NCBI GenBank assembly: GCA_903840415.1
Contig: CAIMFY010000074.1
Coordinates: forward strand, 124,001 to 188,000
Direction of reading: 5' to 3'
Source of the DNA: an uncultured Opitutia bacterium
Lineage (GTDB): Bacteria > Verrucomicrobiota > Verrucomicrobiia > Opitutales > Opitutaceae
Length of the DNA stretch: 64,000 nt
Below, one piece after another: positions 25,976 through 48,550 of this stretch. Position 1 is the stretch's first letter. Each line of letters begins with the position of its first letter. Both the position numbers and the translations under genes were made by a program. Below the pieces are notes generated by a model. The model did not search any database and was not told where the DNA came from. It saw nothing but the letters and a program-made list of their open reading frames with translations.

Positions 25976-25985
25976 TTTGTAGGAT

Positions 25986-27419: not shown

Positions 27420-27487
27420 TGCGGGGATAGCGCTGGAGCGCGACGGGTGCCGCCGGCAAAGGGTTGCAGGGTGTAAAGAGACGGCGG

Positions 27488-30645: not shown

Positions 30646-30651
30646 GCGAAA

Positions 30652-32304
30652 TCAGATTGGGTTGCCGTCGGGAGTGGCGGTGGGTGGATTCATTTTCAGG
30701 CCGAGGATTTTCAAGACGCAGGCGTAGCGGCATGGCGCGACCGCAGGGAGTTTGATATGCAAGCCGTCGGCCCCGTGGGTGAATGCCACCGCGCCTGACG
30801 CACCGAGCAGCGAAACGGTGGATATTTTTCCTTCGAGCGCCGGGTTCGCCGCCAGCGTCGTGAGGTTCACGTCGCCGTTCGCCGGCCCCTCGCCGATGAC
30901 GATGGCGTAGAGGGCTTCGCCTTTCACGGTGAAGCGCACGTGCGGACCTCCGTCACCACGACCGCCGCCGACACCGAAGGTCGTCCAGTTGTGCGTGCCG
31001 TAGATCGCTTCGCCGTTCACCTTGAGCCAGCGGCCGACCTCAAGCAAGGTGTCTTGTTGATCCTGCGGAATCGTGCCGTCGGCTTTGGGCGAGAGGTTCA
31101 GGAAAAAGCAACCGTTCTTTGCGACGGTGTCAGCCAGCCGCGCGATGATGACGCCCGGCGGAAATACTTTCAGATCGTTCGTGTAGCCCCACGACGGACT
31201 GCCGATCGTTTCGTGGACCTGCCAGTTGCCGGTGCGAATGCCGCTGGGCGAGCGCGCGCCAATTTTTTCGAAATCGATGATCGAGGCGATGGTTTCGCTG
31301 TTCTTGTTCGTGGGCGAAAAGGCTGCCTTCTTCGTGGAAATCGAGACCTCTTTGCCCCACGCCGCTGCACGGTTGTAAAAATACGCCGCGAGGCGCAGCT
31401 TCAACGGATCGAGGTAGCGCTGATCGACACCGTTGTCGAACCAGAGCAGATCGGGCTGGAATTTCTCGATCAGCTCGATGTTGCGATCCCACCAATTGAT
31501 CAGGAATTTTTCGCACGCGGCGTCGCTGCGGTCGGCGTAATTGTAGAAATCCGCCCATTTCGGATCGAACAGGTCGGCCGATTTCGCGCGGAGATCGTCG
31601 GCGAGATCCTTGGGCGGGTTGATGAACTGGAAATTTTCAATGCCGTGATTCGACACGCCGAACTTCAGGCCGCGCGCACGGACGGCCTTCGCGAGCTCGC
31701 CCATGAGATCGCGGTGCGGGCCCATCGCCATGGAATTGAACGGCGTGACCTTGCTGTCCCACAGCGCGAAGTTGTCGTGGTGCTGCACGGTCGGTGCGAC
31801 GAAGCGCGCACCGGATTTTTTGAACAGCTCGGCCCACGCCTCGGGATCAAATTTCTCGGTCTTAAACTGCGCGATGAAATCCTTGTAGCCGAATTTGTCC
31901 GGCGGTCCGAAATGCTCGACGTGCCATGCGCGGAACTGAGCATACATGTGCTTTTCATACCACTCGTTGTGGTAGGCGGGCACGGAATAGAGGCCCCAGT
32001 GCACCGAAAGGCCGAACTTCGCCTCATCGAGCCACGCGGGCACGCGGTAATTCTGCTTCAACGATTCCCACGTCGGCGCAAATGGCCCGGGCGGGAGCAG
32101 CGTCGTGATTTTGGCATTGGCGGCTTTGACGACCTCGAGGCGCGTCTCGGGCGCCATGTCGTAACCATCGGAGTTGCCACCATCGGCGATGATACTGCGG
32201 ACGGCGGGAGCCTGCGCGAATGCGATGGAACTCGCGGTCACAAACGAAAAGAACGCAAGAAAGTGGAGCGGAGGATGACGCACGGGGCGGGGAGTGATGA
32301 TCAT
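30652..32304 (-). CDS. Secreted GH29 alpha-L-fucosidase
   Basis: The 550-residue protein has an N-terminal export signal (FLAFFSFVTASSIAFA) and a GH29 barrel: KFGLSVHWGLYSVPAYHNEW, the QHHDNFALWDS block and the nucleophile Asp290 in LLWFDNG. A C-terminal beta domain follows. It releases alpha-L-fucose from polysaccharide or glycan ends. The ATG at 32304 is chosen because the frame upstream has no export signal and overlaps the neighbouring gene. A perfect palindrome lies 11 bases before this start. Confidence 0.9.
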   Translation of the reverse strand: MIITPRPVRHPPLHFLAFFSFVTASSIAFAQAPAVRSIIADGGNSDGYDMAPETRLEVVKAANAKITTLLPPGPFAPTWESLKQNYRVPAWLDEAKFGLSVHWGLYSVPAYHNEWYEKHMYAQFRAWHVEHFGPPDKFGYKDFIAQFKTEKFDPEAWAELFKKSGARFVAPTVQHHDNFALWDSKVTPFNSMAMGPHRDLMGELAKAVRARGLKFGVSNHGIENFQFINPPKDLADDLRAKSADLFDPKWADFYNYADRSDAACEKFLINWWDRNIELIEKFQPDLLWFDNGVDQRYLDPLKLRLAAYFYNRAAAWGKEVSISTKKAAFSPTNKNSETIASIIDFEKIGARSPSGIRTGNWQVHETIGSPSWGYTNDLKVFPPGVIIARLADTVAKNGCFFLNLSPKADGTIPQDQQDTLLEVGRWLKVNGEAIYGTHNWTTFGVGGGRGDGGPHVRFTVKGEALYAIVIGEGPANGDVNLTTLAANPALEGKISTVSLLGASGAVAFTHGADGLHIKLPAVAPCRYACVLKILGLKMNPPTATPDGNPI

Positions 32305-32315
32305 GTGATGAGCCC

Positions 32316-32331
32316 GGTCGCCTTGGCGACC
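32316..32331. promoter_or_regulatory. Perfect palindrome before the GH29 gene
   Basis: GGTCGCC-TT-GGCGACC is a seven-base perfect inverted repeat with a two-base centre, 11 bases upstream of the fucosidase ATG. It could be an operator or a hairpin covering the ribosome-binding region. A two-base loop is too tight for a good RNA hairpin, which slightly favours a protein-binding site. Confidence 0.4.
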
Positions 32332-32414
32332 AGTACAGTGTCGAACCGTCCGATAAACGAAGCGCCGCTGGCGCCGCGAAATGTTTCGAAGAGTCGTCTT
32401 GGCTAGCTCTACCG

Positions 32415-34199
32415 CTACGCTTTCGCCGATGTTTTCGCTAAACGGGCGAGCAGGGCGGCGCGATTGTCCTGAGTGCTCCAATAGCTTTCGCCGATCTTCG
32501 AAAAGGCCGGAACCATCAGCCGAAGAAACTGGGCGCCCAGTAAGTTTTTGAACCGTGGACGCGCGTCTTCTACGACCAATCGCCGCGAGCGCGAATCGAC
32601 TTCAACCAGCTGGCGGCGGGCGAGCAGTTCCTCCTCGTCGGCGGCAAATTCGCCGTAAAGGTTGAACGTCGCGCGCCGGTTGTAGACGAATGGGCTGACG
32701 ACGTTAAGCAACGTGCGGCGCCAGTCGGGCGTTTGCAGGACGATGTCGCCGAGCGGCCGGTGAAGGTTGAGAGCCAGTCCGAACGCATACTCGGAGGCCA
32801 TGATGTGGCGCGCCCCGAAAGCGCCATCGCCGGATGCCGCCAACGCAGCGGTCAGCCGGGCCCGCGCCGCTGGTGAAATTGTGGCGTGGTCGAGCACAAA
32901 GCCAGCCGTCGTGATGCTCATGCGTTCGGTGATGATGCCCACCATCTGCCGGACCAGTGTGCGTGAGGAGGGTTGGAGTTTGCGTCCGACTTGCAGGATC
33001 GGCAGCAGCGTATCGATCGCCGTGTCGCCTTGACCGTCGAGGGCTTGAAGGCTCGCGATCGCACAGGCGTGCTGGCAAAGCGATCGCACCGGACTGAAGG
33101 CCAGCATCTCGAAATCGGCCTCGGCCGGCGTGAGATCGCCGATGCGATCGAAGGTGTTGAGCTCGCTCCACCAGTTTCGCACCGGAGCGAGATCGCTCCA
33201 GTCGGCCTCGATGTCGGCGCGATGCGCCGTGAGCCACGCCAGCCATTGCTCGGGCTTGCCGGGAACGATGGCCTCGCCGGCTTTGATGTTCTCGTAGAAG
33301 CGTTGCGGCGCGTGAAAATCTCGGCCGAGTGGGCGCTGCCGGCTATAACGCATCAGGACCGCGAAACTTTTTTCGGCGCCTGGGAAAGGCGGGCTGATTG
33401 CTTCCAGCGGCACCGGGCGGCGGATGCTCGAATCGTCGATAGCGAGATAGGCGAGCAGTGGAACGAGCGCCAGATAGCCGCCGCCGATCCACCACCACGA
33501 GTGGCGCCGCAGGAGCCACAGTATCGCGAATATCGCCAGCGGGACGACCACGATGAGGAACAGGATGATTTCGACATCACCCAGCGTTTCGTTGGCGACA
33601 TTAAGGAAAAACACCCGTGACAGGCCGTTCAACACGCCATCCAGCGGAGGGAAATATGCGACCAGCACCAGATCCAGGCAGAGAATGAATCCGATTGAGA
33701 GTGCGAGTGTTGCGCCACTTCGTAGTGAGCGTGGTCGCACCCGCCACGTGACATAGCCGATTGCGGCCAGTGTGAAGCTGACCAGCCCCACCGACACGCC
33801 GTTCACTTTCCAAAACGACGCGATCATTACTGCAGCAAATCCGTCGAGGACCGACGGGAACTGCGCGCACAAAACCAGATTTGCGACCAACCCACCCGTG
33901 ACCACCAACCCGAGGCGCACCCAGCCACGCAGCGAACGCAGCGGCAGTCGCCGAGCGATGAAACCGACGAGGACCGGCGAAAGCACGATCAGTCCGAGTG
34001 CAATCGGCAGGCTCGCATCGACGGTGGGCGCGCGACCCGTGAACAGCCGTTCAAACAGCCCATGCGAATCCGGCAGAAACGTGAGCAACAACAGGTCGAC
34101 GACAAAGGCTAGGCCGATGCTAAGCCCAACGAGGGTCAACCATTGCACGATCCGCACACCAGTCGGTGGTCGCAAAGACCGGGATTCGATTTTGCTCAT
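32415..34199 (-). CDS. Polytopic membrane protein with a large soluble domain, unknown function
   Basis: The 594-residue protein has seven predicted membrane helices in residues 20-265, then a soluble helical domain of about 330 residues. The soluble part contains RQRPLGRDFHAPQRFYE, a segment with several cysteines and histidines (SPVRSLCQHACAIASLQAL) and a LLGAQFLRLMVPAFSKI ending. No enzymatic motif or family is recognised. It lies inside the pectin-enzyme block on the same strand, with gaps of 66 and 110 bases on either side. A link to polysaccharide use is guilt by association only. Confidence 0.7.
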   Translation of the reverse strand: MSKIESRSLRPPTGVRIVQWLTLVGLSIGLAFVVDLLLLTFLPDSHGLFERLFTGRAPTVDASLPIALGLIVLSPVLVGFIARRLPLRSLRGWVRLGLVVTGGLVANLVLCAQFPSVLDGFAAVMIASFWKVNGVSVGLVSFTLAAIGYVTWRVRPRSLRSGATLALSIGFILCLDLVLVAYFPPLDGVLNGLSRVFFLNVANETLGDVEIILFLIVVVPLAIFAILWLLRRHSWWWIGGGYLALVPLLAYLAIDDSSIRRPVPLEAISPPFPGAEKSFAVLMRYSRQRPLGRDFHAPQRFYENIKAGEAIVPGKPEQWLAWLTAHRADIEADWSDLAPVRNWWSELNTFDRIGDLTPAEADFEMLAFSPVRSLCQHACAIASLQALDGQGDTAIDTLLPILQVGRKLQPSSRTLVRQMVGIITERMSITTAGFVLDHATISPAARARLTAALAASGDGAFGARHIMASEYAFGLALNLHRPLGDIVLQTPDWRRTLLNVVSPFVYNRRATFNLYGEFAADEEELLARRQLVEVDSRSRRLVVEDARPRFKNLLGAQFLRLMVPAFSKIGESYWSTQDNRAALLARLAKTSAKA

Positions 34200-34265
34200 G
34201 GCTGATCGAGAAGCGACGTAACCGCGCTGACAGCGACGAAACGGACATCAAATCGGTTTATCGTT

Positions 34266-36005
34266 TCAGAGCGACTCGGTGTCGGTGGTGGCGTGTCGGG
34301 TATCGGAGACGCCGGCACAGCCGCTGGCGGAAAAATCCTTCACGGCACGGAGCGCGAAGAACGGCGCGCCGGTGCCACGTTGCGCTTTCGCACGGGTGAA
34401 CTCGCTGCCTTCGACATCTAGCAGCACGACGGCCGGCCGCGTGTCCTCCTTCGCGAAACTGACGTCGAGCCGTTCGACGGTTAGGCTCTTCGCGTGGCGC
34501 ACGAACATTCCGTAGGCCGGAAGAAGTCCGAACATCGACGGCTCCGGATAGCCCTTTTCCTGCTCTGGCGGCGCGAAGGCATCGCGCGGGCCGGCGAGCC
34601 CGGGGCCGCGGAGGAAAAAAGTGTTCACGAGATCGGCGGGTTGTTTCGCTGCATCGTCGAGCGATAGGCCGCCGCGATAGTCGATCCGAATGTCGCTCAA
34701 CCGCACGTCTTCGACCGGATGTCCGGGAATTCCCGCGATGATGATCGGATAGCGCGGATCGCAATTCGAGGCAACGACGTGGCTGATGGTCACGCGGCGG
34801 ATCACTCCAGCCGGCGTGCCTTCGGGGCCGCGTGCACGATTGCCGAGCCGGATAAAAATCGGCGAACTCGAGACGTCGCGCATGGTGATGTTCGTGATCG
34901 CGATGTCCTCGATTACTGCGCCGTCGACGCTCTCCAGCGCGAGGCCGCGGCTGCGAACGAAGACGCAGTTCGAGATCGAAACGTTTTTGAGCCCGCCATT
35001 CGACTCGGTGCCGAATTTGATGCGGCCGGTCGGGCCGTCGCGGTCGGTCGCGCGCTCCTGGGTGGTCTTGAACGTCCCGTCGAGCAGCGAGCCGACATCG
35101 TAGCCGCTCACTTGGCAGCCGGTGATCGTGATGTTTTCGCAGGCGCGCAACTCACCGAGTGCATAGGAACTCTTCAGCACGATGGCGTCGTCGTTGATCG
35201 CGTTGACAGTGCAGTTGGAGATGCGGACGTTGCGGCAGCAGTCGAGGTCGAAGCCGTCGCGGTTCGTATCGACCTTGAGATTGTCGATCGTGAAATTATC
35301 GACGCCGGTCGCGAGGAGTGCGAACCAGCCGCCTTGCAGCACCGAGAAATCGCGCAGGATGACGTTGCGGCAATTTTTCAGCGCGATAGATTTGCTGCCG
35401 GAACCCGGTCCGCCGCCGAAGCCGCCACCGCCGCGCGCTGGAGTCGGAGCCGAGACGGACGCCGCCGGCGGTGTGACGGAAGTCGGAGTAGGCTCGCTGG
35501 GGCCGAAGGTTCCATTGGGTCCTTGCGGCCCGCGGCCACGACCGCCACCACCGCCGCCTCGCACGAGACCTTTGCCAAAAATCCGACCGGAGCCGGTGAT
35601 CGAAATGTCCTCAAGACCTTCGCCCCAAATCAGTGCATCGTGCCAGTGGCTGTGGCCGAAGTCCTGATATTGCTTGTCGCCCCATTCGTTCGGCTCGGGT
35701 GGATCGTAGGCGCCACCGTCGGTGGCGGGCGAGGCGGCGACGAGCGTGCAGCCGGCGTCGAGTTGGAGCTCGATGTGACTCTTGAGGTGAATCGAAAAAC
35801 TCAGATACGTCCCGGCGGGAAAACGCACCGTGCCACCGCCTGCGCCGCTCGCGGCGTCAATCGCTTTGTTGATCGCGGCGGTGTCGAGCGTCTTGCCGTC
35901 GCCGGTGGCGCCAAAGTTGCGCACGTCGAACTCGGCGGCGGCAAGGCGCGAGGCGGCTAGGAGGCTCAGGAGGAGCAGCGGAGGCAGCGGGACGCGGAGT
36001 TTCAT
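34266..36005 (-). CDS. Secreted GH28-type pectinolytic hydrolase
   Basis: The 579-residue protein has a signal peptide, then the pectate-lyase-3-type start DVRNFGATGDGKTLDTAAI, and a beta-helix with GH28 markers: NRDGFDLDCC, INDDAIVLKSS and RIKFGTES. It lacks a clear GHG box, which in the first GH28 is intact, so its specificity may differ. A Gly/Pro/Arg-rich insert lies at residues 149-204. The ATG overlaps the GH35 stop (TGATG), so the two are likely coupled. A rhamnogalacturonan or homogalacturonan hydrolase is most likely. Confidence 0.82.
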   Translation of the reverse strand: MKLRVPLPPLLLLSLLAASRLAAAEFDVRNFGATGDGKTLDTAAINKAIDAASGAGGGTVRFPAGTYLSFSIHLKSHIELQLDAGCTLVAASPATDGGAYDPPEPNEWGDKQYQDFGHSHWHDALIWGEGLEDISITGSGRIFGKGLVRGGGGGGRGRGPQGPNGTFGPSEPTPTSVTPPAASVSAPTPARGGGGFGGGPGSGSKSIALKNCRNVILRDFSVLQGGWFALLATGVDNFTIDNLKVDTNRDGFDLDCCRNVRISNCTVNAINDDAIVLKSSYALGELRACENITITGCQVSGYDVGSLLDGTFKTTQERATDRDGPTGRIKFGTESNGGLKNVSISNCVFVRSRGLALESVDGAVIEDIAITNITMRDVSSSPIFIRLGNRARGPEGTPAGVIRRVTISHVVASNCDPRYPIIIAGIPGHPVEDVRLSDIRIDYRGGLSLDDAAKQPADLVNTFFLRGPGLAGPRDAFAPPEQEKGYPEPSMFGLLPAYGMFVRHAKSLTVERLDVSFAKEDTRPAVVLLDVEGSEFTRAKAQRGTGAPFFALRAVKDFSASGCAGVSDTRHATTDTESL

Positions 36006-37723
36006 CAGTGATAGAGGTAAAGTTTGACACGCTGAAGGGCCGGGCCATCGGGGCCGAAGCGCAGGCCGCTGCCGGACTGGCCCGCCGCGGCGGCGGCGGC
36101 TTGATCGTAGTTCAGCAGGACGTCGTCGCCGCTGAGCTTGCGGCCGGGCACCCAGCGGCCGTCGACAAAAGTGCCGGCTTCGACCGACGCGAGCCCGGCG
36201 ATGTCGGTGGTCGAATTCCGCGGCGAAAAGATCACCTGCACGTCACAGCCGGCGACAAGATATTCGTCGGGCCCGAGCGAAAAGATCATCGCGTAGCCGA
36301 GCGGCGGGACTTGCGACGGATTGCGGCGATTGCGGCGGAGATCGAGGTTGAGCGTGTAGTTTCCGAGCGCGACGTCTTCAGTCTGGTGTTTCGTGTCGAG
36401 CGAAACGGCGGCGATCGTGCCCTTCGCTTGATGCTCAAGGATGAGCGGCGTGAGCTGTTTCAAAATCGAATAGCCTTTGGCGAGCGGAAGATTTTCGAGA
36501 TCGGTCGGAGCCGACGCGCCGAGGTCGGGGCGGAGGACGACGAGCCGGCCGGTGTTATCGATGCCGAAGGGCGAGTAGCCGATTGACGCGTGCTGGCCGA
36601 TCGCGTAGAAGGCGTTGGCGACGCCGCCTGCATCGCCGCGCGACTCGGGGACGAAGAGCGGGTTGCCGTTGCGGTGGAAGCGTGCGACCCACTCGGTGAA
36701 GTTGGGCAGGTAGATGTCGGGACAGTTGAGATCGATGTGCGGTGCGCCGGCGCGCCAGACTTCGAGCGTGAGTGGTTCGGGACCACCGCTCGGATAATCG
36801 CCGGGGCCCTTGTCCTCGGGCTGCACGATCCAGGTGTTGGTGAAAACCGGGATGGGATACTCGGCTTTGCCGAGTTCAGTCAGCCGATCCATGTAGCGGG
36901 CGTAGTGCCACGCCATGAAGAGCTCGTCGGCGGCGGGCGTGGCGCCGAAAACTTCGGCCCACGTGCCGGTGGTTTTTGCACCGGCGGCCTGCCAAACGCT
37001 CGCGATTTCGGGGAGCAGCGTGGATTTGTTTTTCTGGAGATAATCTGTGAGGGCGGCCGGAACGGGTTTCGCAAAAATCTCGTCCGCGGTGGGACTGCGG
37101 TCGCGCGAGTCGCCGAGTAGTCCGACTTCATTCTGCATCTGGATCATCAGGACCGTATGCTTCTTCCCATCGACTTCGCGCAGGTGCCGCATGAACGCGA
37201 CATAGGCGCGAGCGTCGGCCTCGCGATTGGCGTCGCTGAGCGGCGTGAGCACCTCGACGGGCCGGCCGTCCTTCAGCCGGGCCCGTGGGAAGCGGGCTTG
37301 GTCGGCCTTCACCCAAACCGGTGCGAAGCTCGACAGTCCGTTTTTCCAACTGGCGAACCAGATGAACACCACGCGCAGCTTGTTCTCGCGCGCTTGGGCG
37401 AGCAGACCGTCGACGAGCGCGAAGTCGAATTTGCCTTCGACGGGCTCGACCCAGTCCCACGCGACACCGACAAGCACGGTATTGAGGTTGAGCCGCGCGA
37501 GTCGCGGCCAGACCGGCTTCATGTAGTCGAGGCTAGAGGAAGCGGTGTTGGCGGTTTCGCCACCGAGAATCAGCCACGGTTGGCCATCGACGATGAGTTG
37601 GGTGGTGACGCCACGTTTCTCCAGATGCGGAATCGCAGCGGCGGCACCAGTCTGGGCGCGAGCGGTCGCGGCCAGGGTAGCGATATTGAAGAGAAGAACG
37701 GCGATGGCAGTGGATGTTTTCAT
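36005..37723 (-). CDS. Secreted GH35 beta-galactosidase (DUF5597-type)
   Basis: The 572-residue exported protein has a signal peptide and a GH35/GH42-like barrel. The acid/base is Glu199 in MIQMQNEVGLLG. The nucleophile is probably Glu360 in FVPESRGD. The C-terminal ~180 residues match the DUF5597 domain of GH35 enzymes such as the Cellvibrio xyloglucan galactosidase. It would remove terminal galactose from pectin or xyloglucan. Its stop overlaps the second GH28 start by one base. It follows the CBM9-like/PKD gene by 7 bases. Confidence 0.88.
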   Translation of the reverse strand: MKTSTAIAVLLFNIATLAATARAQTGAAAAIPHLEKRGVTTQLIVDGQPWLILGGETANTASSSLDYMKPVWPRLARLNLNTVLVGVAWDWVEPVEGKFDFALVDGLLAQARENKLRVVFIWFASWKNGLSSFAPVWVKADQARFPRARLKDGRPVEVLTPLSDANREADARAYVAFMRHLREVDGKKHTVLMIQMQNEVGLLGDSRDRSPTADEIFAKPVPAALTDYLQKNKSTLLPEIASVWQAAGAKTTGTWAEVFGATPAADELFMAWHYARYMDRLTELGKAEYPIPVFTNTWIVQPEDKGPGDYPSGGPEPLTLEVWRAGAPHIDLNCPDIYLPNFTEWVARFHRNGNPLFVPESRGDAGGVANAFYAIGQHASIGYSPFGIDNTGRLVVLRPDLGASAPTDLENLPLAKGYSILKQLTPLILEHQAKGTIAAVSLDTKHQTEDVALGNYTLNLDLRRNRRNPSQVPPLGYAMIFSLGPDEYLVAGCDVQVIFSPRNSTTDIAGLASVEAGTFVDGRWVPGRKLSGDDVLLNYDQAAAAAAGQSGSGLRFGPDGPALQRVKLYLYH

Positions 37724-37730
37724 GAGCGGA

Positions 37731-38930
37731 TCATTTCAGTTGTATGTCCCACACCTTTGAGCGGCGTGACGTGCCGGCGGGACCCTCGATGTCGAGCACG
37801 GTGACGTAGGAACCGGGCTTCGCGTAGGCGTGGATGGGATGCTGCTCCGTGGAAGTCGCGCCGTCGCCAAAGTCCCATTTCCACGCGGTGATTTTGCCGA
37901 CGGATAAATCCTTGAAGGCGACGAGCCGCCGATCCATGTCGACGACCTTGAAGCTCCAGAGCGCCTCGATCGGTTTGAGGAACTGCGGCTCGAGGGGCAT
38001 GAGCTTGAACGCGCAGAGCTCGGACGCGTTGCCATACATCGTGTGCTTTGGGGAGAGGTTCCAGAATCCGTTGTTTCCGCGCGCGTTCACGTCGTCGTAG
38101 TCGATGATCGCCCAGGCGAGACCGATGATTTTGTTTTCGGCGAAGACCGACTCGACCGCGCGCTGCGGGCCCTCGGGGCCGGCGTAGTCGAAGGCCGTGA
38201 CGTAAAATTCGAGCGTGTAGTGGCCAGACTCGCCGGGCTTGAAATTGAATTTTTGCGCCGAGTTCGCCCATGGAAACTCCTTGATCCAGGAGGCGGCGCT
38301 CCACGCCATGCACCAGTCTTTGTTCACGTGCGGCGTGAAGATGTGGTAGTTCTGCGCCTGCACGCCGTGGATCGCCCAGTGCGCCTCGTCGACACTGATC
38401 CGCGGATCGGGCGTGGCGGCGGCCGCACCGACGCGGTCGGGTGCCCAGAATTCCTTGTGCCCTTTGTCGATGAGCGGACCGCCGGAGGCGTCGCCATCGA
38501 CGACGATCTCAAATGTGTCGTTGTGCAGGCCGGGCTGCGCGAAATCCCAGTAGTTATCGTCGGCCTCGTAGAGAAAATAGAGGCGGTTGAGCCCTTTCAC
38601 CCAGCCGACCTTCACGCGGACGCTGAGATTTTTCGGATCGAGTTTTTGGTCGGGATGGGAGTCGTTCTTCAGTTGGTCACTTTCGATGACGTAGCTCTCG
38701 GGCACCATCGCCCAGTCGCTGGCGTCGCCATCGATGCGCGGGATTTGATCGGCGGGAAACTGGAAGACCTTGTAGGTGATGTCGGGTTTTTCGAGGGCGG
38801 GCGCGAGTGGAACCGCCGTGATGGCAAGCAATCCGGCGACGATGCTCAAAGCAGGCGCGAAACGCGCGGCGGAATCTAACCAGAAATCAGCGGCTAGCGT
38901 GGGCAGCCGTCCGGGGTGAAGGAGGAGCAT
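37731..38930 (-). CDS. Exported CBM9-like protein with a PKD domain
   Basis: The 399-residue protein has a hydrophobic export signal at about residues 28-45. The CBM9/DOMON-like beta-sandwich starts with PRIDGDASDWAMVPES and fills most of the chain. A C-terminal PKD domain (WDFGDGATSTEQHP) covers about residues 325-395. No catalytic residues are recognised, so substrate capture or surface display is likely. It is the first gene of the leftward pectin block. The start is uncertain; a TTG about 90 bases in would also give a signal peptide. Confidence 0.75.
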   Translation of the reverse strand: MLLLHPGRLPTLAADFWLDSAARFAPALSIVAGLLAITAVPLAPALEKPDITYKVFQFPADQIPRIDGDASDWAMVPESYVIESDQLKNDSHPDQKLDPKNLSVRVKVGWVKGLNRLYFLYEADDNYWDFAQPGLHNDTFEIVVDGDASGGPLIDKGHKEFWAPDRVGAAAATPDPRISVDEAHWAIHGVQAQNYHIFTPHVNKDWCMAWSAASWIKEFPWANSAQKFNFKPGESGHYTLEFYVTAFDYAGPEGPQRAVESVFAENKIIGLAWAIIDYDDVNARGNNGFWNLSPKHTMYGNASELCAFKLMPLEPQFLKPIEALWSFKVVDMDRRLVAFKDLSVGKITAWKWDFGDGATSTEQHPIHAYAKPGSYVTVLDIEGPAGTSRRSKVWDIQLK

Positions 38931-39023: not shown

Positions 39024-40223
39024 CTACAGTTCCCGCAACGCCGCCGCGATGGGCAATCGCGCGGCGCGAATGGCCGGCAGCAGCCCACCCAGTAGTCCGA
39101 TCACCGTGGCCCAGACGACTCCTTGCACGAGCAACTGCGGAGTGACGGCAAACGCAAATGTCACCTGACTGAAACTCTGCCAGTTCATGGTGGCGGCGCG
39201 AAAATTATCGAATGCGACATACGCCGCGACCGCGCCCACCGCGCCGCCCATAAGCGCGAGCACGAGCGATTCGATCATGAGCGCGACCACCACGGCGCCG
39301 CCACCAAAGCCGAGTGCGCGCAGCGTGGCGATCTCGCGGGTGCGGGCAGCGACGGCGCTATACATTGTGTTGAGCGCGCCGAAGACAGCTCCGACGGCCA
39401 TCAAACCGGCGATGAGCACGCCGAGCGTGGTGATGAGGCGGGTGATCGTCTGCGACTGCTCGGCGTAGTAGTCGGACTGGCGGACGACCTTCACGTTGAG
39501 GCGCGGATTCGACGTCAACGCATCCTTGAATTCCTGGAACGCACCCGCCGAATTCAGCCGCGCGTAAACTGACTGGAACGAATCGCCGCGGTTATACGCC
39601 GCCTGCAGCACCTTCGCATCGCTCCAAATCTCCGACTCCGCTATGCCGCCGCCGGCGGAAAAAATCCCGACCACCGGCCAGGACTCCCGCCCGACCTTAA
39701 TCGTGGAGCCGACCTCAAGCCCGGCGAACTCGTGTGCCGCACCGGCGCCGACCACGACCTCGTTTCGGCCCCACGTGAACATGCGGCCGTCGGTGAATTT
39801 CACGTTGTCGCGCACAGGGAGCGCCGCGGCTTCGACGCCGCGCAACGGCACGTTCGCATCGGTGCCGGTCGAGCGCTTGGCGAGATTGATGATCACAAAT
39901 AGTTCGGCCGATGCGAGCGGGCCTTGGGCGTTGCGCGCGACGCCAGGCGTGTCGGCGATCACGCGAGTCTCTTCGCGACCGAAGCCGCTGACCATTTCGC
40001 TGTCGGAGCCGCTGCGCAGCACGATCACGGAATCGGCCGCGCCGGACGCCGCCATCGCGCGCCGAAAGCCGGCAGCGATCGAAAGCACGCCGACCAGCAC
40101 GGCCACCACGCCCGCGATGCCAAAGACCGTCGCCGCGACCGCGCCGCGCCGCTGCGGAATGCTCATCAACCCGAAGCGGGTGATCGCGGCAATTTGGGCG
40201 AACCAGTTGAGCAGGCCGGCCAT
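39024..40223 (-). CDS. ABC transporter permease, MacB/FtsX type (second)
   Basis: The 399-residue protein has the FtsX layout: one N-terminal membrane helix (GIAGVVAVLVGVLSIAAGF), a periplasmic MacB-type domain and three C-terminal helices. It begins one base after the stop of the sister permease and so belongs to a four-gene operon with an adaptor and ATPase. The complex would work as a mechanotransmission exporter or lipoprotein transporter. The substrate is unknown. It lies 93 bases upstream of the pectin block on the same strand but is separate in function. Confidence 0.87.
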   Translation of the reverse strand: MAGLLNWFAQIAAITRFGLMSIPQRRGAVAATVFGIAGVVAVLVGVLSIAAGFRRAMAASGAADSVIVLRSGSDSEMVSGFGREETRVIADTPGVARNAQGPLASAELFVIINLAKRSTGTDANVPLRGVEAAALPVRDNVKFTDGRMFTWGRNEVVVGAGAAHEFAGLEVGSTIKVGRESWPVVGIFSAGGGIAESEIWSDAKVLQAAYNRGDSFQSVYARLNSAGAFQEFKDALTSNPRLNVKVVRQSDYYAEQSQTITRLITTLGVLIAGLMAVGAVFGALNTMYSAVAARTREIATLRALGFGGGAVVVALMIESLVLALMGGAVGAVAAYVAFDNFRAATMNWQSFSQVTFAFAVTPQLLVQGVVWATVIGLLGGLLPAIRAARLPIAAALREL

Positions 40224-40224
40224 G

Positions 40225-41376
40225 TTACATCCTCCTTAGCGCCTCCGCGACGCGCAGGCGCATGGCTTGCAGCGCGGGGAAAATTCCGGTGAGCACCCCG
40301 AGCGCGACACTTAGGCCGGCCCCGACGACCAGATCGCTGGTCGCCAGATGAAACATCGGCAGCAGTCCGCCCGTCGGATCGCCGCGGGAAATGATGAGCC
40401 AGGCGACCCCCAGCCCAATGCTACCACCAAGGAGGGTCAGCAGGCAGGATTCCGCGAGCACCAGCCCGAGCAGTTGTCCGTTCGTGAAGCCGATCGCCTT
40501 GAGCACGCCGAGTTCGCCGATGCGTTCGCGCACCGCCTGTGACATTGTGCTACCCGTTACGAGCAGAATGGTGAAAAACACCGCGGCGAGAATCGACGCG
40601 ACGATCAGCGCGATGTTGCCTATTTGGTTCGCCCACGCCTGGATGAATGCGCCCTCGGGCTCGGTCTTGGTTTCCGCCGAAGAATTTTCGAATTCCTGAT
40701 CGACCAACTTGGCCACTTCCGCGGCCTTCGCCGGATCTTTCACGCGGATCGTATACCAACCGACCAAGCCCTGGCCCCAGTTCTGAGTCTGCCGCACTTC
40801 GTCGAAATAGTCGTAGCGAAAAAACATTGGGGTCGTGTCGGTGCCCTTGTCGCGTCCATCGAAAATTCCGACGAGATCAAACTCCCAGGTTTTCCGCATC
40901 CAGATGGGCGACGTGATCGGAATCTTGTCGCCGATCTTCCAGTGGAAGCGCTCCGCTGTGTTGCGGCCGACGATCGCGCCGGTGCGCGTTTGCTGCCACG
41001 CCTTCATCTGGTCCGGCGGGAGCAGAAACTCGGGAAACATCGCCATGTACTCCTCCGGCACCACCGGGTTCTGCATAAAGAAATTCTTCGGATCCTGATA
41101 GATGCCACCGAACCACGTCTGGTGGGCGACGAGCGCGACCCCGGGGATGCGCGCCATCCGCGCCTGATAGCTGATTGGGAGGAGCTGAATGATCGACACC
41201 TTGTGCCGCACGATCAACCGGTCGGCTCCGGCGAGGGCGACGCTGCCGATGAGCGCCTGCTTGATGGCGCACAACATGCCGAACAACACAAACGCCACGA
41301 GAATCGTCAGCAGCGTAAGCGAGGTGCGGAGTTTCTTCCGCATCAGGTTGCCCCAGATGAGATGCGCGAACTTCAT
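40225..41376 (-). CDS. ABC transporter permease, MacB/FtsX type (first)
   Basis: The 383-residue permease begins MKFAHLIWGNLMRKKLR, followed by a membrane helix, a periplasmic domain and three C-terminal helices with ELGVLKAIGFTNGQLLGLVL, the coupling region of the family. The ATG at 41376 overlaps the ATPase stop by four bases; the longer open frame upstream overlaps the ATPase gene and is rejected. It differs from the second permease, so the transporter is probably a heterodimer, as in LolCE-type systems. Confidence 0.88.
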   Translation of the reverse strand: MKFAHLIWGNLMRKKLRTSLTLLTILVAFVLFGMLCAIKQALIGSVALAGADRLIVRHKVSIIQLLPISYQARMARIPGVALVAHQTWFGGIYQDPKNFFMQNPVVPEEYMAMFPEFLLPPDQMKAWQQTRTGAIVGRNTAERFHWKIGDKIPITSPIWMRKTWEFDLVGIFDGRDKGTDTTPMFFRYDYFDEVRQTQNWGQGLVGWYTIRVKDPAKAAEVAKLVDQEFENSSAETKTEPEGAFIQAWANQIGNIALIVASILAAVFFTILLVTGSTMSQAVRERIGELGVLKAIGFTNGQLLGLVLAESCLLTLLGGSIGLGVAWLIISRGDPTGGLLPMFHLATSDLVVGAGLSVALGVLTGIFPALQAMRLRVAEALRRM

Positions 41377-42080
41377 GCGACCGGCACGTTGCTGAGCTGC
41401 CCTTTGTTCAGGTAAACGGTCCGCGAGGCGCGCGCCGAGGCGTGCGGATCGTGCGTCACCATGATGATCGTCTTGCCGTGTTCGCGGTTGAGCGCCTGCA
41501 AGAGGTTCAAAATCTCGTCGCCCGCTTTCCGGTCGAGATCGCCCGTCGGCTCGTCGCAGAGGAGCAGTGTCGGGTCGGTGACGATACCGCGCGCGATGCC
41601 GACGCGCTGTTGTTCGCCGCCGGAAAGGGTACGCGGAAAATGTTTCGCACGGTGCGAGAGCCCGACCATCGCCAGCGCAGTCTCCACGTGTTTCTTTCGC
41701 TCGGCTCTGCTCAGGTGGGTCAGCAGGAGCGGCAGCTCGACATTCCGCTCGGCGGTGAGTACCGGCATCAGATTGTAGAGCTGAAACACGAATCCGATGT
41801 GTCGCGCGCGCCACGCCGCCAGCTGGCGATCGGAGAGTTGGTCCACGCGCTCGCCGGCGATCGTGACGGTGCCTTTCGTCGGTCGGTCGAGGCCGCCGAT
41901 CAAATTCAGGAGCGTGCTCTTGCCGGAGCCCGACGGGCCCATCAAGGCGAGGAATTCGCCCGCGGGCACCTCGAGGTGCAGTTGCGCGAGGATATGGATT
42001 TCCTCGGCGCCGCGGTGAAATACTTTTTCCACACCGTCGACTCGCACGAGGGGCTCACCGCTGTTCGTTGGGTTGCTCAT
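41373..42080 (-). CDS. ABC transporter ATPase, LolD/MacB type
   Basis: The 235-residue ATPase has Walker A GPSGSGKST, the Q-loop (GFVFQLYNLMPVLTAERN), signature LSGGEQQRVGIAR, Walker B LLLCDEP and the H-loop VTHD. It powers the two adjacent permeases. The start at 42080 overlaps the adaptor stop by four bases, and its stop overlaps the first permease start by four, indicating tight translational coupling. The open frame upstream of this ATG lies on the adaptor gene and is not real. Confidence 0.93.
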   Translation of the reverse strand: MSNPTNSGEPLVRVDGVEKVFHRGAEEIHILAQLHLEVPAGEFLALMGPSGSGKSTLLNLIGGLDRPTKGTVTIAGERVDQLSDRQLAAWRARHIGFVFQLYNLMPVLTAERNVELPLLLTHLSRAERKKHVETALAMVGLSHRAKHFPRTLSGGEQQRVGIARGIVTDPTLLLCDEPTGDLDRKAGDEILNLLQALNREHGKTIIMVTHDPHASARASRTVYLNKGQLSNVPVA

Positions 42081-43297
42081 GGTTTTCCTTCCTCGACCGC
42101 CGCGCCATCGGTCAGACCGGCAGGCGGATCGGCCACGATCTTCTCGCCGGCGGATGCGCCTGCGCTCAGCACGATCTCGTTGTCCTGAGAACTTGCCACG
42201 GAAACCGCGCGGCGCTCGGCGCGGCCGTTTTGAAGCACGAAGATGACGTCGCGGCCATCTTGAGATAACAGTGCGGACTTCGGCACTATCACGCCACGGT
42301 CGGCGGTGGTCGTTGCCACTGCACCACTTTCGCGGAAGGCGACCTTCACCGCCATCTCCGGCAGGATGCGCGGATCGAGCCGGTCGAAGCCGACCCGCAC
42401 CCGCACGGTGGATTTTTGCCGATCGGCGGTGGGAATGATCGCGATGACTTTGCACGGGATTTTCCACCCGGCATAGGCGTCGAGCGTCGCCTCGACGGGC
42501 TGGCCGGCCGCGACGCGGTTGATGTAGCTCTCGTTGACATCGATTTCGATCTCGAGCGACTCCATGTCGACGATGGTGCATATGCCGGTGCGCGTGAAGC
42601 CGCCTGACGACATCGGCGAGATCATCTCGCCGGGTTGCGCGTTTTTCGAGGTGACGATGCCGGCGAACGGCGCGCGGATGATCGTGTCGTCCACCTGCTG
42701 CTGCCAGATGGCGACGGTGCGATCAGCGACGGTCAATTCGCTTTGCTGCTGGGCGAGTCGGGCGCGCCAGGCGAGCGCTGCCGCCTCGGCGTGATCAAAG
42801 TCGGACTGCGCGGCGGCGTTGCTTTTCGTCAAGGCGGCAAAGCGCTGCAGTTCCTGCTCGGCTTCCTTGAGCCGCACGCGCGATTCCTGCAGTGCGGAAT
42901 CGGCCGCGGCGAGTTGGGCCCGCGCGAGTTGGAAGCTCGCCTGCACATTGGTGTCGTCGAGGCGCGCGAGCGTCTGACCTTCCTTCACGTGCAAACCTTC
43001 CTCGACTAGCACTTCGGTGACTTTGCCGGTGATCTTGGATGACACGGTGGCGTCGCGGCGGGCGGTGACGTAGCCGGAGGCGTTGAGCACCGTGCGGTCA
43101 CCGGCAGCGGTGGCGACGGCGCGTGCCATCGCGGTGCGAACCACCAGCGGTCGGGGCCGGGCAAACCACCACACGATGGCGCCCACCACAAGTATGAGCG
43201 CGATGACAATCAACCAAGGACCGGTCCGGGTGGGCGAATCCGGCAGGGCGCGGCGTTCGATCCTGAGGTCATCGAGACTTGGCGGCGGCTGACTCAT
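42077..43297 (-). CDS. Periplasmic adaptor of the HlyD/MacA family
   Basis: The 406-residue protein has one N-terminal membrane anchor (WLIVIALILVVGAIVWWF), a lipoyl/barrel-sandwich domain (ATVSSKITGKVTEVLVEEG), a coiled-coil hairpin at about residues 105-195, and beta-barrel and membrane-proximal domains. It links an inner-membrane transporter to an outer-membrane channel; no TolC-like gene is present here. The ATG at 43297 is preferred to the TTG at 43309. It is the first gene of the four-gene export operon. Confidence 0.88.
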   Translation of the reverse strand: MSQPPPSLDDLRIERRALPDSPTRTGPWLIVIALILVVGAIVWWFARPRPLVVRTAMARAVATAAGDRTVLNASGYVTARRDATVSSKITGKVTEVLVEEGLHVKEGQTLARLDDTNVQASFQLARAQLAAADSALQESRVRLKEAEQELQRFAALTKSNAAAQSDFDHAEAAALAWRARLAQQQSELTVADRTVAIWQQQVDDTIIRAPFAGIVTSKNAQPGEMISPMSSGGFTRTGICTIVDMESLEIEIDVNESYINRVAAGQPVEATLDAYAGWKIPCKVIAIIPTADRQKSTVRVRVGFDRLDPRILPEMAVKVAFRESGAVATTTADRGVIVPKSALLSQDGRDVIFVLQNGRAERRAVSVASSQDNEIVLSAGASAGEKIVADPPAGLTDGAAVEEGKP

Positions 43298-43401
43298 GCG
43301 TGGAGCCAAGCAAGCAATCGCGACCGCTCCCGGTCAATCGCGTTGTGTCCGCGCGAAGGAAGACCTGGCGGTGGGCGAGGCGGGCAGGCGGCGAAAATTG
43401 C

Positions 43402-46073
43402 CTAATTTTTCGCGCCTGCTTCCCATTCCGACAGCCACGGTTTAGCGAACTCAAGCGTCTCGATCGCGTTGAGCGCTCACTGCACGCTGCCGACGCCGTG
43501 CAACTGCCAGTTGACGGACTCACCGAGGAACGCCGGGTCGGTCACGGGCCGCAGCACGCCGGGGCCGGAGAATTTTTTCGGTTGGGCGAGCGGTGGGAGT
43601 TTGCGTGGCGGGCCGATGAGTTTTTCCCACGCGAGGCGGCCGAGCGCGGCATCAGTTTTTACCGAGGCCGCATAGGCGAGGAGGCGCGGCGCTGTCATCG
43701 CGTTGCCGCCGGCCTGCCGGCCGACGGATTCGCAGGTGTTGGCCTAGGCGCGCCAGAAATCCGGCAGGTCATACGTCGGCTCCAGCTTCCACATATTTTC
43801 GGGACCGCCGAACAACATGTCGAAGGAGCCGCCGCCGAAACGTCCAGTGGCATCGACGTTGACGGCCATCACCTTCATGTCGCCTTCGCAGCGGGCGCGC
43901 CACGACTGGTCGCCGCCGCGTTCCCACGCGGTCGTTCAGTTGAGGCCGTAACACATCCATTCGATGCCAAGGTGGGTCCACGGTTTGCGATCGGCTGCCG
44001 TCGGGCGCGGGCCGAAATTTTCCGGTCGCGGCGCGGCGATGGCGCGCGGACCGTCAGGGAGCGGTTCGCCATTGGGGCCGGAGACATAGTGCGCGCCGTT
44101 GAATTTTTGCAGGTAGGCGTAGGCGAGATCGGCGTCGAGTTGCTCGTGCAGCAAATCGCCGATGCGACCGTCGCCGCCGCTAAGAAGATAATAGCGGCGC
44201 TTGAGTCCGGCGTGGCTGATGCGCGGCTATTTGGCGCCGTCGCCCCAGTGGTTGACGTTGTGGCGCGAGCCGAGCGGTGCGAATGGGCCGACGTGGTGCA
44301 CGTCCACCTCGCTCGTCTGGCGCGTCATGCGCTCGGCCATCCGGAAAATATCGGCGCGACCCGTCCGCAGAAAAGTGAACCACAGCAGCATGTCGGGCAT
44401 CAGCTCGGTATTGGCCCAGGCCCAGCCACCGATGTCGTAACGCCATTCGTGCCGGCCGAAGTCGTAGTTATGCATGATGTCGCCGAAATCCCAGAAACCA
44501 TACCACGAGCGCTCGTCCACCTGGTCGCGGTAGAAAATCACGAGACCTTCCACTTGATCTTCGACCCAGCGCGAGGCGGGCGTCGAGCGGTCGGGCAGAC
44601 TCCAGCGGGCGCCGGCCTGCTGCGCATGATAATATTCCGGCGTGCAGACGAGAATCGGCGGTTCGCTCGCCGCGGCCGCCATCGCGGCGAGCTGCGTATT
44701 CGGCGGAATCTGGTCGAACGCCCACAGCGTCAGATCGTGGGTGTTGGCGATGCCGAGCGGTTCGCCCCAGCCGGGTTTCCAGTCCTCGTAGTTTACGGAG
44801 AGGCCGTGCGGGATTTCATCGTAACGGCGCAAGTCCATCGCCCCGGCGTCGGGCGGCCAGAGCCAAACGCGCAGCTCGCCGACCGCCGTGGCGGCGCGGA
44901 GGATCTCGAATGACGCCGGCGACTTCTGCCAGAAATCCTTCGCGCCCACCGCAAGTCCGCCCGACACATCGGCAAGCACCGCGAGCCCGCGTGATCGCCG
45001 TCCATCGGTCACGTGCAGCCACGAGGCGTCGGCGGTCGTGCGCTTCGCGAGCGACCAGTCGTTCGGTCCGAGCTGGGCGAGCTTCGCATCGCCCCAGATC
45101 GGCACGCTCAAGATCGCCTCGCGCGTGCGCGGATCGAGATCGGCGAGATTTGGCACGCGCTCGCCGGCGAGGTGTTGTGCTTAGAGATTGCCGATGGTCT
45201 GGCCGGCCTGCGGACGGTAGCCGGGCAGCATCCGCACCGGCTGCGCTCACACGCCGTCGCCATCGCCGGCGAAGCGCACGTGGCGGTTGTGCAATTCCTC
45301 CTTGAACGGAACCTCAAACGACAGCCCGAGCCCTTTCAGGAAATCCTTGTTGCCGTCGCCGTCGAAGACGAACGAGTGCGTGAGTTGAATCTCGCCGCTG
45401 CCGGCGAAGAACGTCAGCCGAACCGTGAACGGCAACCAGACGCGCCCGCCGTTCGCGGCGGGCTCGATCATGCGGCCTTCCTGTTTCACCACTGCGCGCA
45501 CCGGGCCGCTTTGCTCGAGAGTGGCGCGCTCGATGTCGCCCCGCATCTCGATGTCGCGCAGCACGCCCGGCGGCTCCGGTCTTCCCCGGATCGCGATGAG
45601 GGTGGCGTTCTGCGCCACAATGCGATCGCCGATCGTGAGCGATTCGATTATGTGAGCGTGGTGTTTGGAAACGCGGGCGCGCATCTCTCCGGTGTCGATC
45701 GTAAACACGTCGGCATCTTCGGAAGATTTGATTTCTGCTCCGGTCGCACCGGTGGAGGTGGATGCAGCCGTGGGCGTGAGCGTGAGCGGCCGGCGAGTCC
45801 GGCCGGCGCGGCGATTGCGTGGCCGGTCCACTTCACGGAGCCGTCCGGCCAGAACGCCAGCGGCCGCGTCTGCACCGGCACCGCTTTTCCGTCAGGCGTC
45901 GTGAGTCCGAGCGGATCGGATTTTTGCAGCGCGCCTTTTGGCCACGGCACGCCCCAGCTCACGCCGGCAGCTGTGGCCGGCTCGGAGTCGCCGAGTCAGT
46001 GCAGTTGCACCGGCTCGGCGGCAAGCACGGCGAGTCGCAAAAGCAAAAATGCGAATACGTGAGTGGATTTCAT
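43402..46073 (-). pseudogene. Degraded exo-rhamnogalacturonan lyase-like gene (PcRGLX/YetA family)
   Basis: The minus-strand reading gives a nearly full-length protein of about 890 codons, from a signal peptide (MKSTHVFAFLLLRLAVLAAE) to a stop at 43402. The N-terminus (GVSWGVPWPKGALQK, FWPDGSVKWTGHA) fits the RIFT-barrel domain of exo-rhamnogalacturonan lyases. Internal stops are at 45996 (TGA), 45247 (TGA), 45181 (TAA), 44227 (TAG), 43936 (TGA), 43744 (TAG) and 43477 (TGA). A missing base near 45790 shifts the frame once. Flanking residues stay family-like on both sides of each stop, and most stops fall where Trp is expected. The enzyme would have cleaved the rhamnogalacturonan I backbone. 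Family assignment is by pattern recognition. Confidence 0.75.
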
Positions 46074-46086
46074 GAGAGTTTGGAGA

Positions 46087-46617
46087 TCACTTATTCCTAG
46101 GCGGAAGTTCACCGGGTTTTGGCAGTGTAACGACCAGCGTGGTGTTTTCGGGTGTGAGTTGCTCCCAGCCAAATTCGTGGCCTTCGGTGTCACTGGCATC
46201 GATCACGCCGCCGATCCCGTTGCCGAGTTTTTTGATGAACGTCGCCTCGAACATCAGCACTCCTGCCGCTGGGCGAGGAAAAATAATTCGGAAGGCGACA
46301 TCGTTTTCCTCGGTCAACTGCACGTCGACCCGCCGCGCCGCGACTTGGGTTTTGACTGAAGTGATCGTGAACAACACCGCGCCCGCTTGCACCAGCCGGG
46401 CCCGGTGCTGAGCGAAATTTTCCGGCGTGAGCTGGGCAATCTTACCGGCGGGATCAATGAGCTTCAGCGCCGTGACCTGCGCCATCGTGACGAGCAGTTC
46501 CAGTTGATCGGGGTGCACGATGGCCTCGGTCCAACTTTCGGCTGGATCGTGTGCGCGCAGCGGCGCCGCTAGGAGTGCGGCAACAACGAGCGTAGCGAAA
46601 CGGGGCACAATAAGCAT
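46087..46617 (-). CDS. Secreted hypothetical protein, 176 residues
   Basis: The protein has a signal peptide (ATLVVAALLAAPLRA) ending at a His-Asp (AHDPAES), then an all-beta-looking domain with HPDQLELLVTMAQVTALKLI and a C-terminal VTLPKPGELPP. The start resembles the extracytoplasmic part of HupE/UreJ-like proteins, but no membrane helices follow, so that is only a guess. It precedes the broken lyase gene by 13 bases on the same strand and diverges from the helicase gene. The ATG at 46617 is chosen for the signal peptide. Confidence 0.7.
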   Translation of the reverse strand: MLIVPRFATLVVAALLAAPLRAHDPAESWTEAIVHPDQLELLVTMAQVTALKLIDPAGKIAQLTPENFAQHRARLVQAGAVLFTITSVKTQVAARRVDVQLTEENDVAFRIIFPRPAAGVLMFEATFIKKLGNGIGGVIDASDTEGHEFGWEQLTPENTTLVVTLPKPGELPPRNK

Positions 46618-46641
46618 CGACAAAAAACGGTGGACATAATG

Positions 46642-46665
46642 CCAAACGCACTCCCGAGAGTTTGG
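46642..46665. promoter_or_regulatory. Inverted repeat in the helicase divergent promoter region
   Basis: CCAAAC at 46642-46647 pairs with GTTTGG at 46660-46665, and CTC/GAG pair inside. It lies in the 109 bases between the secreted hypothetical and the helicase, which point away from each other. It may be an operator; nothing else supports it. Confidence 0.3.
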
Positions 46666-46726
46666 TTGCGCAGTGTCGTGAGGAATGCGGGCTCGCCGTG
46701 GCGCGGAATCGCGCACACGGTGTTGC

Positions 46727-48550
46727 ATGGAAAAACGTCCGTTTAGCGAACTTGGCCTCTCGGCCGACATCTTGAAGGCCGTGGAAAAAATGGGCTTCGA
46801 GGAAGCATCACCCATTCAGACCGCGGTGATTCCTGTCGCGCTCACCGGCAAAGACATCGTCGGCATGTCGTCCACGGGTTCGGGCAAGACGGCGGCGTTC
46901 GCCATTCCGGCGATCGAGCGCGTCGATCCCAAGGTGCGGGCAGTGCAGGTGCTCGTGTTGTGCCCGACGCGTGAGCTCGCGGTGCAGGTCGCGGAGGAGA
47001 CAGGCAAACTCGCGCTCTTCAAGCGTGGCGTGACGGGTGTGCCGATTTACGGCGGGCAGAGTTACGAGCGGCAGTTTCGGGCGCTCGCGGCCGGCGTGCA
47101 GGTCGTCATCGGCACTCCCGGCCGCGTGATGGATCATATGGAGCGCGGCACGCTCAAACTCGACCAGTTGAAACTCGTGGTGCTCGACGAAACCGACCGG
47201 ATGCTCGACATGGGCTTCCGCGACGACATCGAACACATCCTGAAGGCGACGCCGCAAACGCGGCAGCTGATGTTCTTCTCGGCGACGATTCCGCGGATGA
47301 TTCAGGATCTGATCGGCCGCTACTCGAAGAATCCCGAATGGATTAAAATCGAATCGGTCGCGCAGAACGCGCCGCAGGTGGAGCAGGTGTGGTTCGAGGT
47401 CGATCGCCGCTCGAAGATCGAGGCACTGACGCGGCTGATCGATGTGAACGATTTTCGCTACGGCATCATTTTCTGTAGCACGAAGATCATGGTTGATGAT
47501 CTCGACGAACACCTGCACTCGCGCGGCTATCTGACGGATCGGCTGCACGGCGACATTACGCAGGCGCAGCGCGACCGCGTGATGCAGAAATTCCGCGAGC
47601 GTAAATTCGAATTTCTCGTCGCGACTGACGTCGCCGCCCGCGGGCTCGATGTCGATGATCTCGAGGTGGTTTTTAATTTCGATCTGCCGAACGACGCCGA
47701 GGATTACACGCACCGCATCGGCCGCACGGGCCGCGCCGGCCGGAAGGGCCAGGCGTTCACCTTCGTCTCGGGTCAGGAACTCTACAAACTCCAGAGCATG
47801 GTGCGCTGGGCGAAACTTGATGTGCGGCGCGGCAAAATCCCGTCGCTGGACGAAGTTGATGAGGCGCGCACGGGCGTGTTTTTCGAAAAAATCCGCGCGA
47901 CGCTCGAAGCGAAGAATTTCAAGCCGCACGACCGGATGATCGATCGGCTGCTCGATCAGGGCTACGCGAGCACGGACATTTGCTCGGCGCTGATTCACTT
48001 GCTGCAAGGCGCGCCGGGTGTGAGCGGATCGTCGGCGAAGGCCGGAGCGGTTGCCAAGGCCCAGCCCGCGTTGACGAATCCGGCGTCGTCGGAAAAATCG
48101 GTGAAGCCAGCGCCCTCGTGGGCGAAACATGCTGCGGCGCCGAAAGCGAAACCGGTGGTGGAGCGGCCGGCGGCCGTTGCGCCGGTGCTGGCAGCAGCGG
48201 TAGTGGAAGACGCACCACCAGCGGAATCAGACGAAGGCGAGGCCGAGCAACGCGCGCGCAAATCGAAATACGAGCGGCCGGCGCGCACCGGCCGCGAGCC
48301 GGGTTTCGCGACCGTGTTTCTAAACGTCGGGCGCAAACAACTCGTCACGCCGGCGGATATCGTCGGGAAAATCGCCGGCGTCACGCGTTTGCCCGCGACC
48401 GTCGTCGGCGCGATCGACATTCATCAGCGCCACACGCTCGTCGACGTGGCGGAGGCAGAGGCCGATTTCATCGTGCAAAAACTGACGGGAATCAAAGTGA
48501 AAAACATCGCGCTCGAGCCGGCGCGGGCCGGCAACGAAACCGTATCGTGA
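46727..48550 (+). CDS. DEAD-box RNA helicase with DbpA-type RNA-binding domain
   Basis: The 607-residue protein has the helicase core with Q motif (SPIQTAVIP), motif I STGSGKT, motif Ia PTRELA, motif III SAT and motif VI HRIGRTGRAG. Motif II reads D-E-T-D, not the usual D-E-A-D. After a low-complexity Ala/Pro/Lys linker at about residues 430-520, the C-terminal ~75 residues (TVFLNVGRKQLVTPADIVG) form a DbpA-like RNA-binding domain, which in DbpA targets 23S rRNA. A role in ribosome assembly or cold-stress RNA remodelling is likely. The ATG at 46727 starts the family N-terminus. Confidence 0.9.
   Translation: MEKRPFSELGLSADILKAVEKMGFEEASPIQTAVIPVALTGKDIVGMSSTGSGKTAAFAIPAIERVDPKVRAVQVLVLCPTRELAVQVAEETGKLALFKRGVTGVPIYGGQSYERQFRALAAGVQVVIGTPGRVMDHMERGTLKLDQLKLVVLDETDRMLDMGFRDDIEHILKATPQTRQLMFFSATIPRMIQDLIGRYSKNPEWIKIESVAQNAPQVEQVWFEVDRRSKIEALTRLIDVNDFRYGIIFCSTKIMVDDLDEHLHSRGYLTDRLHGDITQAQRDRVMQKFRERKFEFLVATDVAARGLDVDDLEVVFNFDLPNDAEDYTHRIGRTGRAGRKGQAFTFVSGQELYKLQSMVRWAKLDVRRGKIPSLDEVDEARTGVFFEKIRATLEAKNFKPHDRMIDRLLDQGYASTDICSALIHLLQGAPGVSGSSAKAGAVAKAQPALTNPASSEKSVKPAPSWAKHAAAPKAKPVVERPAAVAPVLAAAVVEDAPPAESDEGEAEQRARKSKYERPARTGREPGFATVFLNVGRKQLVTPADIVGKIAGVTRLPATVVGAIDIHQRHTLVDVAEAEADFIVQKLTGIKVKNIALEPARAGNETVS

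Follow-up and report, generated by a model that had tools for sequence, protein, structure and literature searches.

The analyzed stretch of DNA (64,000 nucleotides; hereafter, the window) belongs to a draft genome of the family Opitutaceae of Verrucomicrobiota (4.9 Mb, 124 contigs, 98% complete). It carries a minus-strand gene of a rhamnogalacturonan lyase, which begins with an ATG at 46073, ends with a TAG at 43404–43402, and is interrupted by seven in-frame stop codons (four TGA, two TAG, and one TAA) and a frameshift (Table 1). All three domains of the PcRGLX family, namely the N-terminal domain, the central beta-sandwich, and the C-terminal alpha/alpha-toroid (PF19501, PF21345, and PF21346), scored over the cut-off. 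The match with PF19501 reached 99.7 bits, and a stop-free piece of 317 aa matched PF21345 (E = 3.7e-51) and PF21346 (E = 2.5e-75). The same piece could be aligned end to end with the solved PcRGLX (PDB 5xq3; E = 1.4e-91). PcRGLX, an exolyase of CAZy family PL26, was not named in any paper found by our literature search. The first ~95 codons of the gene lie in one reading frame and the remainder in another, a switch that a single-base deletion would produce. Thus, the interval, the seven stops, the one-base loss, and the family assignment proposed in the first-pass annotation were all recovered, with the gene placed on the minus strand.

Table 1. Lyase gene, its lesions, and the surrounding features of the window.
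Feature	Position	Strand	Basis or remark
Small secreted-type protein without Pfam or NCBIfam match, intact	46087–46815	–	Adjoins the lyase in G001 and G123
PL26/PcRGLX-family rhamnogalacturonan lyase pseudogene, ~890 codons	43402–46073	–	Reading frames, Pfam, relatives, structure match
Premature stop TGA	45996–45998	–	Trp in 8/8 relatives
One-base deletion/frameshift	45786–45792 (switch at ~45789)	–	Reading-frame change
Premature stop TGA	45247–45249	–	Trp in 7/8 relatives, Phe in one
Premature stop TAA	45181–45183	–	Tyr (TAC) in 7/8 relatives, Ser in one; transversion
Premature stop TAG	44227–44229	–	Gln in 8/8 relatives
Premature stop TGA	43936–43938	–	Trp in 8/8 relatives
Premature stop TAG	43744–43746	–	Trp in 8/8 relatives
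Premature stop TGA	43477–43479	–	Trp in 8/8 relatives
HlyD/ABC ATPase/2 × MacB-FtsX exporter cluster, four genes	39024–43309	–	Separates the pseudogene from the pectin genes
Intact pectin/RG-I locus	23558–38930	–	Profile matches; frames open

A search with the lyase piece gave a match in 123 of 252 Opitutaceae genomes, and the window copy was aligned by codons with eight full-length close relatives. All eight are uninterrupted (open frames of 911–1089 aa), and the lesions are confined to the copy of the source genome, which therefore represents a disrupted frame with intact homologs and not an open frame giving a whole protein. An additional candidate for a dead copy, an open frame of 684 aa in genome G089, was rejected, since it was cut by an assembly gap of N bases instead of decay. 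The nearest relative was found in G123, a groundwater Verrucomicrobia MAG (JACRKC010000030), with 76% identity over the aligned protein. Of 337 columns that do not vary among the other eight sequences, the window copy differed at 20 (15 missense changes and five stops); the same kind of test for its sister G123 revealed differences at 5 of 322. Over the conserved C-terminal region, the window copy had a branch three times as long as that of G123 (0.170 vs. 0.058). The open relatives, the lesions private to one copy, and the identity preserved between the stops support the recent loss of function suggested earlier.

Comparison of the stop positions with the eight relatives demonstrated that the stops replaced five Trp, one Gln, and one Tyr residue, and that five of the seven columns were invariant among the relatives. 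The first-pass annotation had derived every stop by a single transition from TGG, CAG, or CAA and had placed most of them at Trp positions. The latter was borne out by the alignment, and the former holds for six stops, which are GC-to-AT transitions from Trp TGG (five) or Gln (one) codons, but not for the TAA at 45181, which arose from TAC by a C-to-A transversion. The gene contains 35 well-conserved Trp columns. Stops arise most readily from Trp codons, which under neutrality would supply 38–56% of new ones; therefore, five of seven is unremarkable (P = 0.07–0.33). Moreover, both routes from Trp to a stop by transition are G-to-A changes, so the spectrum of the stops is largely dictated by the genetic code.

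It had also been proposed that GC-to-AT mutation drove the loss of the gene. The GC3 of the lyase is 0.797, and several neighbors have values of 0.77–0.81, i.e., near the genome norm, which rules out genome-wide drift toward AT as the cause. Among the amino acid changes on the lyase branch other than stops, only 18 of 90 were GC-to-AT transitions. With normal GC3 and no bias in the other changes, the proposed drive is not supported. Targeted or burst mutagenesis, such as the action of a DNA cytosine deaminase or an episode of hypermutation, would explain why six of the seven stops are GC-to-AT transitions; however, the same type makes up only a small part of the missense changes, and the share of Trp among the replaced residues requires no special cause. 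In addition, the C-to-T and G-to-A changes were balanced between the strands (40 vs. 34 overall), and all four bases were found 5′ of the mutated C (p = 0.075 against the background). Thus, the strand or neighbor-base bias expected of deaminase-mutated DNA was absent, and such an origin of the stops, already given as the less likely one in the first-pass annotation, appears extremely improbable.

The genome is a draft of many contigs and the stops are known from the assembled sequence alone; hence, an error of the consensus or assembly, with the stops absent from the DNA of the living cell, had to be considered. Such an error would have to hit one gene only, as the real frames of the syntenic neighbors, which were compared with G001, G123, and G029, are free of internal stops, and no internal stops were detected in some 20 GH28, GH88, and PL26 matches elsewhere in the genome. 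The stops are also clean substitutions spread across 2.5 kb, unlike homopolymer indels. We therefore regard this explanation as very unlikely.

With the stops masked, the dN/dS on the lyase branch was 0.147, compared with 0.137 for the background, and was not significantly raised (LRT 0.18). The inclusion of a neutral phase nonetheless improved the fit: a one-omega codon model in which a functional phase is followed by a neutral one gained ~4.7 log units over a single phase, and a neutral phase in a three-site-class model gained 2–3.6 log units, in both cases with masked stops. The missense-to-synonymous ratio of the lyase (0.92) was higher than in the two relatives whose synonymous composition has shifted in a similar way (0.64 and 0.68), which suggests some hidden relaxation. 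At the same time, the missense changes would lead one to expect about 1–2.5 stops, and the site-class model with a final neutral phase predicted 0.9–1.5 stops (95% upper bound of ~2.7) against the seven observed, and, as dN/dS was not raised, pure neutral decay fits imperfectly. Joint simulation of the stop and missense counts gave a probability of about 1e-3 or less under every setting tried, and in the subset of regions where G123 was consistently the nearest relative, six stops were found against 0.6–1.0 expected. Per opportunity, GC-to-AT transitions on the lyase branch numbered 50/418 for synonymous, 18/734 for missense, and 6/93 for stop-making changes. The excess of stops persisted even when every missense change was counted as neutral (Fisher p = 0.04). 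The comparison of stops with expectation is post hoc, concerns a gene picked for its many stops, and uses a model whose functional baseline may be off.

Some of these values would also suit a lyase that is still decoded, with the stops suppressed or read through, so that a change of TGG to TGA was quasi-synonymous and missense changes were purged: dN/dS has stayed low, and the rate of stop-making changes lies between the missense and the synonymous rates. However, three different stop codons stand at three different residues, TAG alone being found once in a Trp and once in a Gln column, and readthrough would not cure the frameshift, which has no obvious slippery sequence. No tRNA with the anticodon UCA, CUA, or UUA was detected among the 43 tRNAs found, a set in which a few expected tRNAs, e.g., for Ile, are missing. 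Internal stops were absent from the other genes, and the 15 replaced residues at otherwise invariant columns also speak against a decoded protein. On the basis of the tRNAs found, the mixture of stops and residues, and the frameshift, an alternative genetic code or stop suppression was rejected, and continued decoding, which the first-pass annotation had likewise put second, has only a minute probability.

Chance, together with the fact that the first-pass annotation singled out a striking case, most likely accounts for the excess of stops relative to missense changes. It is hardly probable that nonsense changes entered faster than comparable missense changes because they were favored or specifically tolerated, either since the protein stayed useful through partial readthrough or since missense alleles alone were harmful, for example, by misfolding of the exported enzyme, which would have left stops as the acceptable way to lose the gene. 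A surplus that was real and held generally would be relevant to the question of whether the decay of bacterial pseudogenes is neutral or favors lesions that do less harm, which is beyond what one gene can settle.

The pectin locus of the window comprises genes of GH2, GH28, a SASA esterase, a GDSL esterase, an alpha-L-fucosidase, an unknown protein, a BT4146-like rhamnogalacturonidase, GH35, and a PKD-domain protein. A 594-aa protein encoded in this locus (32415–34199, minus strand) had no match in Pfam or NCBIfam. The lyase had been described as adjoining an intact pectin locus; the locus is indeed intact, but the four genes of the ABC exporter lie in between. In G001, a member of the same genus, the exporter cluster is absent from this place, and the lyase is directly followed by the pectin operon, beginning with its PKD-domain gene. 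The best match of the exporter HlyD in G001 has 28% identity, and relatives are found elsewhere in G123 (71%) and G057 (63%). On the other side, the small gene ends with its stop 13 bp before the ATG of the lyase; its product has a signal-like start, and Pfam and NCBIfam searches gave no match for it. An open frame at 46808–48130 on the minus strand was rejected as an upstream gene, as it runs antisense to the gene of a DEAD-box helicase (46685–48550, plus strand).

On the lyase tree, the window copy clustered with G123, which belongs to a different genus, and its grouping with the copy of G001 was rejected (AU p = 2.4e-5). On the trees of glnD and valS, the source genome grouped with G001 with 95–100% support, and the gene order around the lyase locus is common to these two genomes. 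The inconsistency of the lyase tree with the glnD and valS trees and the gene order indicates that the window lyase is, as far as can be judged from phylogeny and synteny, a xenologue or a hidden paralogue. A gene-sized xenologous replacement of the lyase is possible. The small gene at 46087–46815 was closer to the same genus (65%) than to the other (54%), opposite to the lyase. No repeats suggesting an insertion sequence were found in a search for footprints of mobile elements around the pseudogene.

The first-pass annotation concluded that a backbone lyase had been removed, which is correct for this locus but not for the genome as a whole. A second, intact PL26 lyase (open frame of 1029 aa) is located beside a GH105/88-family gene on another contig (C94:130390–134431). 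This pair forms a separate RG-I degradation locus. The genome also contains three further GH105/88 genes, many GH28 matches, and a weak match to the RGL11 family. Since the PL26 paralogue and the GH105/88 and GH28 genes are retained, cleavage of the RG-I backbone was probably narrowed and not abolished by the loss of the window lyase, to judge from the gene content.

In conclusion, we hold with high confidence that the window gene is a pseudogene of a formerly functional PL26 lyase, probably acquired horizontally, which lost its function recently and afterwards accumulated the several nonsense changes and the one-base deletion. The loss may have been tolerated since another PL26 lyase is retained, and the exporter cluster that splits the gene from the pectin operon may have lowered the use of the lyase. 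The case is a clean example of a single lineage losing one of its pectin backbone lyases, with the rest of the RG-I locus intact and a second lyase preserved.

Compared with known systems, the window gene belongs to an established enzyme family and, as a young pseudogene, is ordinary except for the surplus of stops. It shares the three-domain architecture of PcRGLX (PDB 5xq3, 5xqg, 5xqj, and 5xqo; PF19501/PF21345/PF21346) but, unlike it, can no longer be fully translated. With the intact PL26 genes of Opitutaceae, of which that of G123 is the nearest, it has the subfamily in common, and the small upstream gene is shared with G123 and G001; the relatives are open, whereas the copy of the window genome alone is disrupted. 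It resembles the young bacterial pseudogenes described by Kuo and Ochman (2010; PMC2916853) in being alignable over its full length and damaged by substitutions and a small indel, and differs from them in the excess of nonsense changes over the expectation based on missense changes.
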